A DNA stretch of 34,154 nucleotides, taken from a virus. A program made the translations under genes and the position numbers. The stretch lies in IMG/VR virus record IMGVR_UViG_3300027782_000209, positions 1 to 34,154 of that record, one strand, 5' to 3'. This document shows, one piece after another, positions 27,914-31,682 of this stretch. Position 1 is the first letter of the stretch. The number at the start of each line of letters is the position of its first letter. The notes below the pieces were generated by a model. The model was not told the origin of the DNA, searched no databases, and worked only from the letters and a program-made list of their open reading frames with translations.

Positions 27914-28071
27914 GCAATCTTGTAGACGACCTGATCGAGATTGGGTTTACGCTCACGCAGATTAAATGGGCACTTCAAGATGGGTCTTGGCTAGCAATCT
28001 CAGGAATATCAGAAAGCGAGGCCGAGGCTGCATACGCCGACGTACAAGAACGATTAAACAACTATCAATAG
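27910..28071 (+). CDS. 53-residue early protein, unknown function
   Basis: ATG at 27910 overlaps the preceding stop as ATGA, with AAGGAGG 5 nt upstream, the strongest ribosome site in this cluster. The protein MSNLVDDLIEIGFTLTQIKW, then ALQDGSWLAISGISESEAEA, looks like a small helical bundle with two Trp. No family recognised. An alternative start at 27871 would overlap the previous gene by 43 nt and is not needed. Confidence 0.6.
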   Translation: MSNLVDDLIEIGFTLTQIKWALQDGSWLAISGISESEAEAAYADVQERLNNYQ

Positions 28072-28082
28072 GAGACACACAC

Positions 28083-28262
28083 ATGGCAATAACGCACGAC
28101 TCAATGACACCGTACGACTTGGCTTGCGTGCTCGCAATGCAGGGACTTTTGTCTGGCGAGCCTAGGCTTGCCCACTGCCCGTACGACTTGGCAAATGACG
28201 CGATACGCTCTGTCGACGCGTTGTTTGACCGTCTGAAGCAAAACGAGGACGCAAAGAAATGA
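28083..28262 (+). CDS. 59-residue early protein, unknown function
   Basis: ATG at 28083 has AGGAGA 7 nt upstream. The protein has two PYDLA segments (TPYDLACVLAMQGLLSGEPR and CPYDLANDAIRSVDALFDRL), an internal duplication of a short helical unit, and ends in KQNEDAKK. Its stop overlaps the next start (ATGA). No family recognised; the twin PYDLA helices may pack against each other. Confidence 0.58.
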   Translation: MAITHDSMTPYDLACVLAMQGLLSGEPRLAHCPYDLANDAIRSVDALFDRLKQNEDAKK

Positions 28263-28417
28263 TCATCACAGAAATCAAAAAAGGGTTCTGGCGCCTGACT
28301 AGCACCGGCGAGTCTGACACCGACACGTTAGTTTTTTTTGGATTCAGCCGAAACGAAGTCATCGGCAAGCTGAACTCTTGGGTAAGACGCAAAGACCTAC
28401 AGAAATATTTGTATTAA
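28259..28417 (+). CDS. 52-residue early protein, unknown function
   Basis: ATG at 28259 overlaps the TGA of the preceding gene. The 52 codons end with TAA at 28417, 17 nt before the next ATG. The protein MIITEIKKGFWRLTSTGESD, then TLVFFGFSRNEVIGKLNSWV, has a beta-hairpin pattern followed by a helix with RRKDLQKYLY. The gene lies in a continuous overlapping series, which supports its reality despite its size. No family recognised. Confidence 0.55.
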   Translation: MIITEIKKGFWRLTSTGESDTDTLVFFGFSRNEVIGKLNSWVRRKDLQKYLY

Positions 28418-28434
28418 ACCAACTGGAGCAAAAC

Positions 28435-28671
28435 ATGATATACGACAACAAAAACAAAGGCGCGATCTGGGCCAACAAAAAACACTTAGAGAACGAAAAG
28501 GCGCCGAAATGGACTGGCAAGCTGGACGTGGAGGGCGTGACATACACCGTGTCGGCGTGGCCAGGCGATAAAGAAAAACCAACTTCGCCGTCGCTAAGAT
28601 TTTCTATCCAGAAAGCTGACACAGCACCTGCTACAAAACCCAAAGAAATTATCGAAGACGTTCCATTTTAG
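28435..28671 (+). CDS. Small beta-rich protein with SSB-like acidic tail
   Basis: The start at ATG 28435 is chosen because GGAG lies 8 nt upstream; a frame opening at 28378 lacks a site and overlaps the previous gene. The 78-residue protein begins IYDNKNKGAIWANKKHLENE, then KWTGKLDVEGVTYTVSAWPG and PSLRFSIQKAD, matching a widespread small phage family (ngxLFxNxrkexxxHPDytGxixvdGxxYxlsaW) whose function is unsettled. It ends in IIEDVPF, closely like the DDDIPF tip through which bacterial SSB recruits partners. It may be a single-strand-binding or SSB-mimicking protein. This is inferred from the tail and the fold pattern. Confidence 0.65.
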   Translation: MIYDNKNKGAIWANKKHLENEKAPKWTGKLDVEGVTYTVSAWPGDKEKPTSPSLRFSIQKADTAPATKPKEIIEDVPF

Positions 28672-28686
28672 TCTCGGAGTAAACCC

Positions 28687-28899
28687 ATGCGTAAACTAGA
28701 TGACCTAGTAGATGAGCTAATCGAAGAGATCGACAATTGCGTTAGCGTGAAAGAGCTTAGTCTGTTAGAGGACAAGATCTGGGGCCTGCGGTGCGAGGCC
28801 AACGACGCGCAGGACGACGAGCTCGTTGTAGCCTACGACTGTGCGCTACAAGTACTGGGCGCCAAGCGGTTTAACCACAACATTGACACCAAGCTATGA
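28687..28899 (+). CDS. Acidic helical early protein, unknown function
   Basis: The 70-residue acidic protein consists of predicted helices: MRKLDDLVDELIEEIDNCVS, VKELSLLEDKIWGLRCEAND and DELVVAYDCALQVLGAKRF. The ATG at 28687 has CGGAG 8-9 nt upstream, and its stop overlaps the next start (ATGA). The Leu spacing suggests an antiparallel coiled coil. No family recognised. Confidence 0.58.
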   Translation: MRKLDDLVDELIEEIDNCVSVKELSLLEDKIWGLRCEANDAQDDELVVAYDCALQVLGAKRFNHNIDTKL

Positions 28900-29120
28900 G
28901 CAAGATTATGAGCAAGATAATGATAAATCCATCGGATGTAGTTTGTATGGGCGTAGTAGCGCTGTTCTTATTAGCCGCTTGTGTCGCAGGTACTATGGAG
29001 TACGGCGATGAGGAGCGGCAGCGGGTCTTGTACTGCGATATGTTTAAGATCTATCAGGAGTCAGGAGGTGAATACGGCTGGCCGGACTATAACGATAATG
29101 CTAAGGAAGTATGTGAATGA
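28896..29120 (+). CDS. Small membrane-anchored protein
   Basis: The 74-residue protein starts with a duplicated MSKI-MSKI (two ATGAGCAAGAT units, so either ATG may be used), then an N-terminal hydrophobic segment VVCMGVVALFLLAACVAGT (about 15-33), then a hydrophilic part with YGDEERQRVLYCDMFKIYQE and WPDYNDNAKEVCE. The LLAAC could pass for a lipobox, but a single-pass membrane helix is just as likely. I recognise the YGDxxxxxLYCDM...NY/DN...C type as a small phage membrane protein of unknown function. The last 30 nt are repeated at 30205-30234 after the glycosyltransferase. Confidence 0.6.
   Translation: MSKIMSKIMINPSDVVCMGVVALFLLAACVAGTMEYGDEERQRVLYCDMFKIYQESGGEYGWPDYNDNAKEVCE
29091..29120 (+). 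repeat. Direct repeat copy A flanking the glycosyltransferase cassette
   Basis: The last 30 nt of the small membrane protein gene (coding NDNAKEVCE and stop) match 30205-30234 at 27 of 30 positions. The final bases GTGAATGA also supply the overlapping ATG of the next gene, at both copies. Confidence 0.85.
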
Positions 29121-29344
29121 TTGATCTATTTGATAAATACCCAGAGTGGGTCGGTATGCCTGAGTTTGATCAACAAAACAAAAAACCTTTTAAGGAAATT
29201 ATTGTTAGATTTGAAACTGAAAATGACTACCTTGATTTTCAAAAAAAATTAAACCAACAGCTTACGTTAAAAACAAAAAGCATTTGGCATCCTTTTAAAT
29301 CCCACTGGGGAGTAGAGCGTAAGGTATACGTTAATGAACCCTAA
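29117..29344 (+). CDS. Companion protein of the glycosyltransferase, unknown function
   Basis: The 75-residue protein begins MIDLFDKYPEWVGMPEFDQQ and has FKEIIVRFETENDYLDFQKK, then LTLKTKSIWHPFKSHWGVER. I recognise the PEWxGMPEF...IIVRF...DYxxFxxxL...LTxKTKSIWxP pattern as a conserved small phage protein often found beside other modification genes; no activity is assigned. It starts in the repeated GTGAATGA and overlaps the glycosyltransferase start by 11 nt. Together they form an AT-rich two-gene cassette (one 60-nt stretch at 29221 is about 25% GC by hand count, against about 60% at 28801). Confidence 0.65.
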   Translation: MIDLFDKYPEWVGMPEFDQQNKKPFKEIIVRFETENDYLDFQKKLNQQLTLKTKSIWHPFKSHWGVERKVYVNEP

Positions 29345-30197
29345 CTTCCCAATCTATATTGTATCTAAAGGCCGTCATGAAAATGGTCTGACTACAAGAG
29401 CATTACATGAGATGGGCGTAAAGCACTATATTGTTGTCGAGCAGAACGAGTTAGAGCTGTATCGGGCTGGCAGGTGTTTCGGAACACTGCTGGTGTTGCC
29501 AGATAAATATAAGGTTGAGTATGAACTTTGTGACGATTTTGGTCTGACAAAAAGCACTGGGCCAGGCCCTGCAAGGAACTTCTGCTTAGACCACAGCACA
29601 AGCAACGGATTTGCTCGGCACTGGGTCATGGACGACAACATTGATGCGTTTCACTATCTCAATAAAAATGAGAAACTTGAGGTTCGCACTGGCTCGACAC
29701 TTCTTGCAGCAGAAGATTTTGTAGGCAGGTATTCCAACGTCCCTGTAGCTGGCCTTAATTACTATTCGTTTTGCAAGAAAGTGGATGCTGTTCCTCCCTA
29801 TGTCTTAAACACTCGCATTTATTCGTGCTTGTTAATTGATAATCATGCTGGCTATCGGTGGCGTGGCAGATACAACGAAGACACAGATTTAAGTTTGAGG
29901 GTACTGAAAGACGGCCTTTGCACCATTCAATTTAACGCTTTCTTGTGCGGAAAAATTACAACTCAAAGAATGCGTGGCGGCAACAGCGGCGACTTCTACG
30001 ATGCAGAAGGTACTTTGCCGAAGAGCCAGATGCTGGCCGACTTGCATCCTGATGTTGCGAAAGTTGTTTTTAAATTCAATCGCTGGCATCACCATGTTGA
30101 TTACTTTCAATTTAAAAAAAATAAGTTAATCAAAATTGTAAATACAGACAATCTGCAAAAAGTAAATAATTATGGGATGGTGCTTGGTAATGTTTAA
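29334..30197 (+). CDS. TET-associated-type (GREB1-like) glycosyltransferase
   Basis: The 287-residue protein has the order of the TET-associated glycosyltransferase family. IYIVSKGRHENGLTTRALHE (7-26) is the nucleotide-binding start. HYIVVEQNELELY (31-43) follows, then GPGPARNFCLDHS (76-88) and RHWVMDDNIDAFHYLN (95-110), whose DDN takes the place of the DxD metal motif of GT-A enzymes. GRYNEDTDLSLRVLKDG (178-194) gives the conserved acidic catalytic part. Family members are predicted to glycosylate 5-hydroxymethylcytosine made by phage TET/JBP enzymes, but no such enzyme is in this window. A different acceptor or a partner outside the window is possible. The gene is AT-rich against its neighbours and lies in a cassette flanked by direct repeats. 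Confidence 0.78.
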   Translation: MNPNFPIYIVSKGRHENGLTTRALHEMGVKHYIVVEQNELELYRAGRCFGTLLVLPDKYKVEYELCDDFGLTKSTGPGPARNFCLDHSTSNGFARHWVMDDNIDAFHYLNKNEKLEVRTGSTLLAAEDFVGRYSNVPVAGLNYYSFCKKVDAVPPYVLNTRIYSCLLIDNHAGYRWRGRYNEDTDLSLRVLKDGLCTIQFNAFLCGKITTQRMRGGNSGDFYDAEGTLPKSQMLADLHPDVAKVVFKFNRWHHHVDYFQFKKNKLIKIVNTDNLQKVNNYGMVLGNV

Positions 30198-30234
30198 GAC
30201 TGACAACAATAATGCAAAGGAAATATGTGAATGA
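30190..30234 (+). pseudogene. Relic of the small membrane protein gene after the glycosyltransferase
   Basis: A 14-codon frame reads MFKTDNNNAKEICE then TGA. It matches the end of the gene at 28896-29120 (MFK at its residues about 48-50, then DNAKEVCE at its C terminus) with the stretch between deleted. It overlaps the last codons of the glycosyltransferase. It is a remnant of a duplication that brackets the cassette. Confidence 0.65.
30205..30234 (+). repeat. Direct repeat copy B flanking the glycosyltransferase cassette
   Basis: Partner of 29091-29120, 27 of 30 identical. It lies just after the glycosyltransferase stop and ends in the GTGAATGA that gives the start of the next gene at 30231. 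Confidence 0.85.
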
Positions 30235-30518
30235 AAAAACAACCCCCGATCAAGCTGGTAGAGGACCGCACCGAGTACACTGACAGTCTAGTAAGGCAGG
30301 CTGAGATCGATGAACACATCGCTACATTCCTGCGCAGGGGCGGGCAGATTATTCAGCTAGAGACTGACGCGACAGGCTTGGACCGTAGCGGCAAAATGGC
30401 CGAGCCGTTCGTGATTAAAAGCCATGTGCTGCCCCGCAAAAAATCAAAGCAGAACTGGAAAGACGGTGATCTAAAGGGCTGGAGGGCAAAGGGCAAGATT
30501 GAAGAGGACTTGGAATGA
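30231..30518 (+). CDS. 95-residue basic protein, unknown function
   Basis: The protein starts MKKQPPIKLVEDRTEYTDSL and has a short helical region with AEIDEHIATFLRRGGQIIQL (about 24-43), then a basic C terminus with LPRKKSKQNWKDGDLKGWRA (about 67-86). The IDEHIATFLRRGG segment is reminiscent of the small DNA-binding helices seen in several phage regulators, but I cannot name a family. Its ATG lies in repeat copy B, with AAGGAAA upstream. Its stop overlaps the next start (ATGA). GC content returns to about 50% here, unlike the cassette before it. Confidence 0.6.
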   Translation: MKKQPPIKLVEDRTEYTDSLVRQAEIDEHIATFLRRGGQIIQLETDATGLDRSGKMAEPFVIKSHVLPRKKSKQNWKDGDLKGWRAKGKIEEDLE

Positions 30519-30691
30519 AAGACGAGGATTTGCCCCAGCCGTGTGCCTGCGGCGCCGAGATGGTCAGCGTCATAGCGAACGACACGCCGGACAATCACCC
30601 GTACAGAAAAGGCTGGTTCTGTTTTTCGTGCAAGCGGTGGGTAGACGCTGTAAGCAGGGAACGGTTAGTTAAGACGCCCCCTGTAGTCTGA
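30515..30691 (+). CDS. 58-residue zinc-ribbon protein, last gene of the rightward block
   Basis: ATG at 30515 overlaps the preceding stop. The 58 codons end with TGA at 30691. The protein has CACGAEM near the N terminus and CFSCKRWVD in the second half, giving two pairs of cysteines for one zinc site, with HPYRKGWF between them. This layout (CxCG...GWFCxxC) is common in small phage proteins without assigned function. The 3' end overlaps the 3' end of the convergent NinG-like gene by 27 nt. Confidence 0.6.
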   Translation: MKDEDLPQPCACGAEMVSVIANDTPDNHPYRKGWFCFSCKRWVDAVSRERLVKTPPVV

Positions 30692-31219
30692 TATAATTTT
30701 TTTCAAATCTTCCACGGTGTACCTCGTGACACCGTTTTGAGCTTCGAGCCAGTCTACCAATCCCACCCCGAACCTGCGGACCAGCCTGATCCTGTACTCT
30801 ATGAGATTACCGGACAGGCTTGCGTTGCACTGGGCGCAGCTCGCGTAGATGTTGTCTGGGTTGTAACGCAGGGCCGAGCACGCCTTCACGCTCCGGTAGT
30901 GTGACGCGTGCCTCTGATGTTTGCCATCGTCTGGCCGGTCGCACGAAACGCACGGCAACCCTTTGTCCCTGAGCCTGACGTACCGATTAACCGCCGCCTG
31001 TGCCTCTGCACGCCACTTTGACATTGGCTTGATACGTTCACGCGCCTGAGAGGTCAATTTGCGCTGTGCGGCTTCCTGTGCACGATCAATCACTATCCTG
31101 CGCTTCTTCGCGACTGTGACGCCGCACTCTGGCGAGCACCATGCTACAGGGCCAGGGAAGACTTGCACGGGACGAAAATACTCTCCGCACCCGCCGCACT
31201 TCCTTTTGCTATTCGCCAT
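30665..31219 (-). CDS. NinG/Rap-like recombination nuclease
   Basis: The 184-residue protein has the two zinc clusters of phage NinG. The N-terminal KCGGCGEYF with WCSPECG (Cys 8, 11, 28, 32) is followed by a long basic helix. The second cluster runs CVSCDRPDDGKHQRHASHYR (90-109) and CAQCNASLSGNLIEYRIRL (128-146), where the HASHYRS and CNxxxSGN motifs give the HNH-like core. Lambda NinG (Rap) cuts recombination branch points in phage DNA. Its gene is next to a NinB-like gene, as in lambda-like nin regions, which supports the call. It is the last gene of the leftward replication block. Confidence 0.85.
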   Translation of the reverse strand: MANSKRKCGGCGEYFRPVQVFPGPVAWCSPECGVTVAKKRRIVIDRAQEAAQRKLTSQARERIKPMSKWRAEAQAAVNRYVRLRDKGLPCVSCDRPDDGKHQRHASHYRSVKACSALRYNPDNIYASCAQCNASLSGNLIEYRIRLVRRFGVGLVDWLEAQNGVTRYTVEDLKKIISDYRGRLN

Positions 31220-31682
31220 TGTGTTCTTTCTGCAGCTTCTGGTACTGACCCTTGGACTCTAGCACCAGCCCGTCGTTCGCGGCAGTGTTCTGTAGCCACG
31301 TCAGGAGCTGGAACATTTCACCAGTCTTGTACTCGGCCGAGCTCCGGTAGTACGGCTTGCCCTTGGCGCCAGTGCGTGGATTCACCAACGTCTTCACCAG
31401 CCACTCGGACCCGGTCTGTAGATAGTACAAATGTTTTGCTTTGCGCTTCATGAACTCGATCATCTCTTCGGTCACATTGCGGTGGTCAATCTTGCCTAGG
31501 TGTGCAGCGTACAACGACAGCCATATGTGAAACAGCGCGTTCTGGTCGAGGCTGCGCTCAACCCCTGCACGAAAAACAAACGTCAGGTACTTGTGCTCTT
31601 TCCACTTTTCGTGGGCCCACCTTGCAAAGGCCGCGCAAGATATTTCCGAATTTACAACAAAAGTGTTCTCGCTAATTTCCAT
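31209..31682 (-). CDS. NinB/Orf-like recombination mediator
   Basis: The 157-residue protein has the NinB signature ERSLDQNALFHIWLSLYAAH (about 42-61), equivalent to the RTLDQNAKMWA motif of lambda NinB, with strands before it (KYLTFVFRAG) and helices after (TEEMIEFMKRKAKHLYYLQT). In lambda this protein (Orf) binds single-stranded DNA and helps load the strand-annealing protein. It overlaps the NinG-like gene by 11 nt. The C-terminal 50 residues are extra or diverged compared with the lambda protein. Confidence 0.75.
   Translation of the reverse strand: MEISENTFVVNSEISCAAFARWAHEKWKEHKYLTFVFRAGVERSLDQNALFHIWLSLYAAHLGKIDHRNVTEEMIEFMKRKAKHLYYLQTGSEWLVKTLVNPRTGAKGKPYYRSSAEYKTGEMFQLLTWLQNTAANDGLVLESKGQYQKLQKEHNGE

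Follow-up and report, generated by a model that had tools for sequence, protein, structure and literature searches.

A marine phage acquired a two-gene sugar-transfer cassette between the overlapping genes g74 and g95

In a marine phage, two overlapping genes, g74 and g95, have become separated by a cassette of two genes for sugar transfer, and a copy of the end of g74, the upstream gene, lies on each side of it. The window, by which we mean the whole stretch of DNA analyzed, is the 34,154-nucleotide IMG/VR record IMGVR_UViG_3300027782_000209. On its plus strand, g74 (28896..29120) is followed by the cassette genes S (29117..29344) and G (29334..30197), which overlap by 11 nt, and then by g95 (30231..30518), the gene that stands directly 3' of g74 in relatives with an empty site. 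The insertion after g74 is carried by two contigs only, the window and its sister contig IMGVR_UViG_3300017777_002503 (L001, L007, and L009 in our comparisons), which has the same insertion and an identical 37-nt relic of the g74 end. In phage genomes, genes are tightly packed and stops overlap starts, which makes it hard to see how a gene can enter without breaking a neighbor. At this locus one can see the site with and without the insertion, the scar that was left, and a later transfer. The cassette probably arose by one-sided homologous plus illegitimate recombination at the g74-g95 junction.

The cassette and the duplicated gene end

The upstream gene is intact and encodes 74 aa with a single hydrophobic segment and a C-terminal GWPDY motif (phrog_6168). 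At its start there is an exact 12-nt tandem duplication (28895-28918, TATGAGCAAGAT twice) that is absent from the sister contig, and the true start of g74 may be the second ATG, at 28908. The product of g95 matches the RNA-polymerase-binding domain of SutA only weakly (23.9 bits against a cut-off of 29.3), and it might act on host transcription. Elsewhere in the window, on the minus strand (105-2403), two adjoining genes are made up of RCC1-type-like repeats (W..G..GQLGLGNTT.YSSPKQVGALT), as judged by eye; these are possibly tail or receptor proteins.

The cassette is AT-rich, as the first-pass annotation had stated, and its counts are exact: 15 of 60 positions are G or C at 29221-29280, against 36 of 60 at 28801-28860 and 30 of 60 at 30421-30480. 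The GC content of the cassette is 40.5%, compared to 51.5% for the window; of 662 segments of cassette size, only one has a lower value, which ranks the cassette second in AT-richness at this size.

The repeat that the first-pass annotation had placed at 29091-29120 and again after the glycosyltransferase was found there with the identity given: positions 29091-29120 and 30205-30234 match at 27 of 30 nt. This is the top direct repeat within 28000-31500, and about 200 random pairs of 60- and 80-nt stretches of the window gave a best match of 20/30. With one gap allowed, the repeat extends to 36 nt on the left (29085..29120) and 37 nt on the right (30198..30234), where it lies flush with the stop codon of G. 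Both copies end in GTGAATGA. The ribosome site of the next gene is inside the g74 tail, and each copy has AAGGA 9 nt 5' of the next ATG, at 29103-29107 for S and at 30217-30221 for g95. At the end of each copy this ATG overlaps the stop as ATGA, which bears out the earlier reading that both repeats supply the start of the following gene. That reading also took a 14-codon frame, MFKTDNNNAKEICE (30190..30234), as a relic of g74. The tail relic is real, at 30198-30234, but the opening codons of the frame, MFK, are the 3' end of G, encoded by ATGTTTAA. MFK does not belong to the relic because the G genes of other cassettes (L011, L013, L015, and L016) likewise end in ATG(C/T)TAA, followed there by unrelated sequence, and because the left gene of the sister contig has MVK instead.

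Empty sites and the origin of the insertion

An empty site with a single tail copy had been predicted, and it was found in six contigs (L002, L003, and L166-L169). In these, a g74 homologue runs into a g95 homologue through a stop/start overlap, with one tail. The identity of their g74 to that of the window is 80% for L002, 76% for L003, and 57 to 59% for L166-L169; the empty sites fall in two g74 clades (76 to 81% and 57 to 59% identity). The two genes are ancestral neighbors with an ATGA overlap, and the ribosome site and start of g95 lie within the last g74 codons. As relatives have g74 and g95 adjacent with one tail, the cassette is an insertion. The opposite polarity, in which the cassette is ancestral and the empty sites are deletions between the tails, is very improbable. 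Direct repeats would permit such a clean deletion, but two g74 clades are empty and none has S-G at this place, and the base composition of the cassette is foreign. Morons are extra, compositionally foreign genes between genes that are adjacent in relatives, and classically they have their own promoter and terminator. The cassette resembles them in that it separates genes adjacent in relatives and differs in base composition. It differs from them in that its promoter- and terminator-like sites are no more frequent than in shuffled sequence.

Other cargo follows g74 homologues at sites of this kind, as the first-pass annotation had proposed to check. In L004 (4926-5793) and L006, an N6_N4 DNA methylase directly follows the g74 homologue via an overlap, and there is no tail scar. 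In L202, an 18/18-nt tail repeat follows a 69-aa cargo. In L204, a 128-aa cargo lies between the g74 homologue and the next gene; L206 has the same right junction, and the cargo is absent from L205, L207, L208, and L211, which are empty. In L204, a short tail copy from g74, GGAGAGG(T/C)GCAATGA, of only about 15 nt, forms the in-frame end of the cargo gene and contains the start of the next gene.

The two tail copies at the g74-g95 junction are not equivalent. The tails of all empty sites and the right copy read EICE (ATA), and EVCE (GTA) is present only in left copies. The right copy thus carries the ancestral allele and is the better candidate for the resident gene end. Both copies also have TGT and AACAAT (AACGAT in the left copy of the window), which are absent from the empty sites. 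This suggests either that donor and recipient alleles were close or that the right copy derives from the left one. In another order of events, a tandem duplication would have come first, doubling the g74 tail through g95, and S-G would afterwards have taken the place of the first g95 copy. We regard this order of events as unlikely. It would account for tail copies that are nearer to each other than to the empty-site tails, but neither the window nor L007 has any trace of a second g95, the g74 loci examined include no duplicated intermediate, and L204 and L205 differ at this junction by the cargo alone.

For one-sided homologous plus illegitimate recombination, the donor fragment would have had S-G directly behind the end of a g74 allele, and it would have entered a genome in which g74 and g95 were adjacent. 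The left join would have been homologous and inside g74. The right join would have formed without homology, placing the terminal ~37 nt of the resident g74 behind the end of G. The product would have a whole g74 and a g95 with its own ribosome site and start, and its anatomy suggests that it was retained by selection: as the ribosome site of g95 lies inside the g74 tail, only insertions that duplicate the tail preserve both genes. At the right junction, the stop of G is directly followed by a truncated g74 tail with the ancestral EICE, which is the structure expected of a non-homologous join. At the left junction, g74 is intact and its alleles are odd, with a dS of 0.73 between the two filled contigs. 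A locus of the donor type, with a g74 homologue followed by S-G and then by something else, was not found among the loci compared.

The S-G pair and scars at other loci

G belongs to the TET-associated glycosyltransferase (TAGT) family; it matches the full Pfam model PF20691 with 169.9 bits (E 8.8e-50; gathering score 27.5) and is assigned to phrog_842. A search by sequence in the PDB gave no match to G. S (75 aa, MPEF...KTKSIWHP) falls into no family of Pfam or NCBIfam, and its PHROG match is weak. Its conserved positions are W, PE, Q, K, and W.P, and AlphaFold models it with too little confidence (mean pLDDT 74, pTM 0.41) to support a search by fold. In 152 of 158 matches, some of which come from overlapping loci, S immediately precedes G. 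An overlap of the same length, 11 nt, joins the two genes in 84 of the ~101 separate pairs, and S is fused to G in five contigs and also in Vibrio phages 1.076.O and 1.124.O. Based on this adjacency, the common overlap, and the fusions, S is very likely a partner of G. The family of G and the gene fusion make it probable that G adds sugars to modified bases of phage DNA and that S is a partner subunit. The TAGT of T6 belongs to the same Pfam family as G, and according to the paper describing it (PMC13216743), TAGTs without T4-type glucosyltransferases form a large group that lacks an explanation. The window proteins that were scanned included no alpha- or beta-glucosyltransferase. Whereas G is paired with S here, the available text on the T6 enzyme makes no mention of S (PMC13216743). 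The S-TAGT pair is a widespread unit whose partner gene is nameless in the family libraries searched. The taxonomic assignments of contigs with the pair include Chryseobacterium, Erwinia, Pantoea, and Rhodovulum. Two TAGT matches stand in tandem in a contig that was assigned to a metagenome bin of Verrucomicrobiaceae (L331:4001-5841).

The proposal that a two-gene module was inserted by recombination is supported by the empty sites and by the recurrence of the S-G unit in 59 upstream-context clusters (and 62 downstream clusters) among ~103 loci. These many unrelated contexts, in which S-G often starts at a stop/start overlap (47/92), could also point to a site-specific mobile element, with an enzyme that moves S-G and duplicates its target at gene ends. 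We consider this the least probable of the explanations. No integrase, transposase, or nuclease family was found in the cassette when S and G were scanned, and the copies vary between sites in both sequence and length (~15 to 78 nt). Instead of a fixed-length, identical target duplication, we found 27/30 identity here and 69/78 at L030, and the repeat is absent at most sites.

L030 is the second strong case. There, S-G follows an unrelated gene whose last 78 nt recur 3' of G (69/78 identical); both copies end in ATGA, which starts the next gene at each copy. The exact neighbor pair that would form an empty L030 site was not found among the relatives of its upstream gene, which have a single tail and many different next genes. 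The homologues of this gene (L030:525-878, with a FWKAYP motif) in L246-L325 are followed by varied genes across many phages, mostly through an ATGA overlap, and several of these next genes resemble DNA methyltransferases. The position 3' of the FWKAYP-motif gene is a strong gene-swap hotspot.

Start-associated repeats occur in mycobacteriophages. It could be argued that the repeats around S-G are likewise regulatory, the same translation start signal being kept or reinvented at both junctions rather than left as an insertion scar. Each copy does contain a ribosome site and a start, and S-G is flanked by repeated leader-like sequences in L054 and L061; we did not count the repeats in these two loci as gene tails. 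We nevertheless disfavor this explanation and think it quite improbable, as the match in the window includes coding triplets 5' of the ribosome site (NNNAKEICE) and begins at the stop of G, and the match in L030 is 78 nt of coding sequence.

What the scars have in common is that they carry the downstream gene's ribosome site and start. Among 106 S-G loci, strong junction repeats were found only in the window with its sister contig (L001) and in L030, and L086, with a 23-nt tail repeat, is a weaker, moderate case. The weak junction similarity in L013-L016, where the region 3' of G is convergent, was taken as chance. As most S-G cassettes do not have a tail copy, tail duplication is one route among several. 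In a general scan, gene tails were repeated in 31 of 4575 cases and internal control segments in 10 of 3029, an approximately twofold excess in which the tail repeats are mixed with paralogues and palindromes. With most S-G loci scarless and only this excess in the scan, the route is real but minor. Scars of the same type beside other cargo suggest that the route can be used repeatedly.

Recent transfer and relation to known systems

The window and the sister contig have a block that they came to share recently. Over S, G, and the relic they differ at 11 of 1114 sites, compared to 198 of 4361 in the flanks (p 6e-10), and g74 differs at 22 of 178 sites. Divergence is low over 29103-30250, from within the left tail to 16 nt beyond the relic, and the bounding differences are at 29102 and 30251. 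The dS is 0.00 for S and 0.012 for G, most neighbors have 0.05 to 0.34, and g74 has the value given above. As dS is close to zero in the cassette and higher in its neighbors and in g74, the block of cassette plus relic most simply moved recently between phage lineages. The divergence profile strongly indicates that it passed by homologous recombination with crossovers at or near the tails. The g74 alleles themselves also appear to have been exchanged at this locus; an outgroup comparison asking which filled contig has the foreign allele gave 9 vs 6 vs 9. After the original insertion, the block would have spread among related phages by homologous recombination in the g74 tail and in the relic or g95 start, and recombination between the two tails would be expected to delete the cassette cleanly.

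Homology-facilitated illegitimate recombination is described in transformable bacteria. Such recombination, leaving displaced 3' parts, was proposed for the effector-immunity arrays of the Vibrio cholerae type VI secretion system (T6SS) (PMC5361080). The origin proposed here would be of this kind, with one homologous anchor and one non-homologous join, and in both cases a resident 3' part is kept downstream of the module. They differ in that we deal with phage genomes and with a gene tail of ~15 to 78 nt that includes the next gene's ribosome site, and in that the act of recombination is deduced here from sequences.

Gain of genes at phage gene boundaries, as part of mosaicism, has long been known. 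T4-type mobile regulatory cassettes and the start-associated sequences of cluster K mycobacteriophages are motifs present in multiple copies per genome. They resemble the tails described here as repeated gene-start signals usable as recombination points for gene shuffling, whereas here one gene's own tail is duplicated around one cargo. The kind of event is thus known, although it can be followed here in uncommon detail; new is the duplicated-tail variant with its empty relatives, its parallel cases, and a transfer that is visible in the divergence profile. We found no description of this variant in the open-licence literature searched.

A more speculative idea, which we put forward only tentatively, is that duplicated gene tails serve as portable address labels. 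A cassette between two copies of a conserved gene end could then enter any phage that has this end, through annealing over ~30 nt, while its neighbors stay translated, and it could leave cleanly by tail-to-tail recombination. If true, this would allow a reversible, integrase-free trade of DNA-modification genes at overlapping gene junctions.
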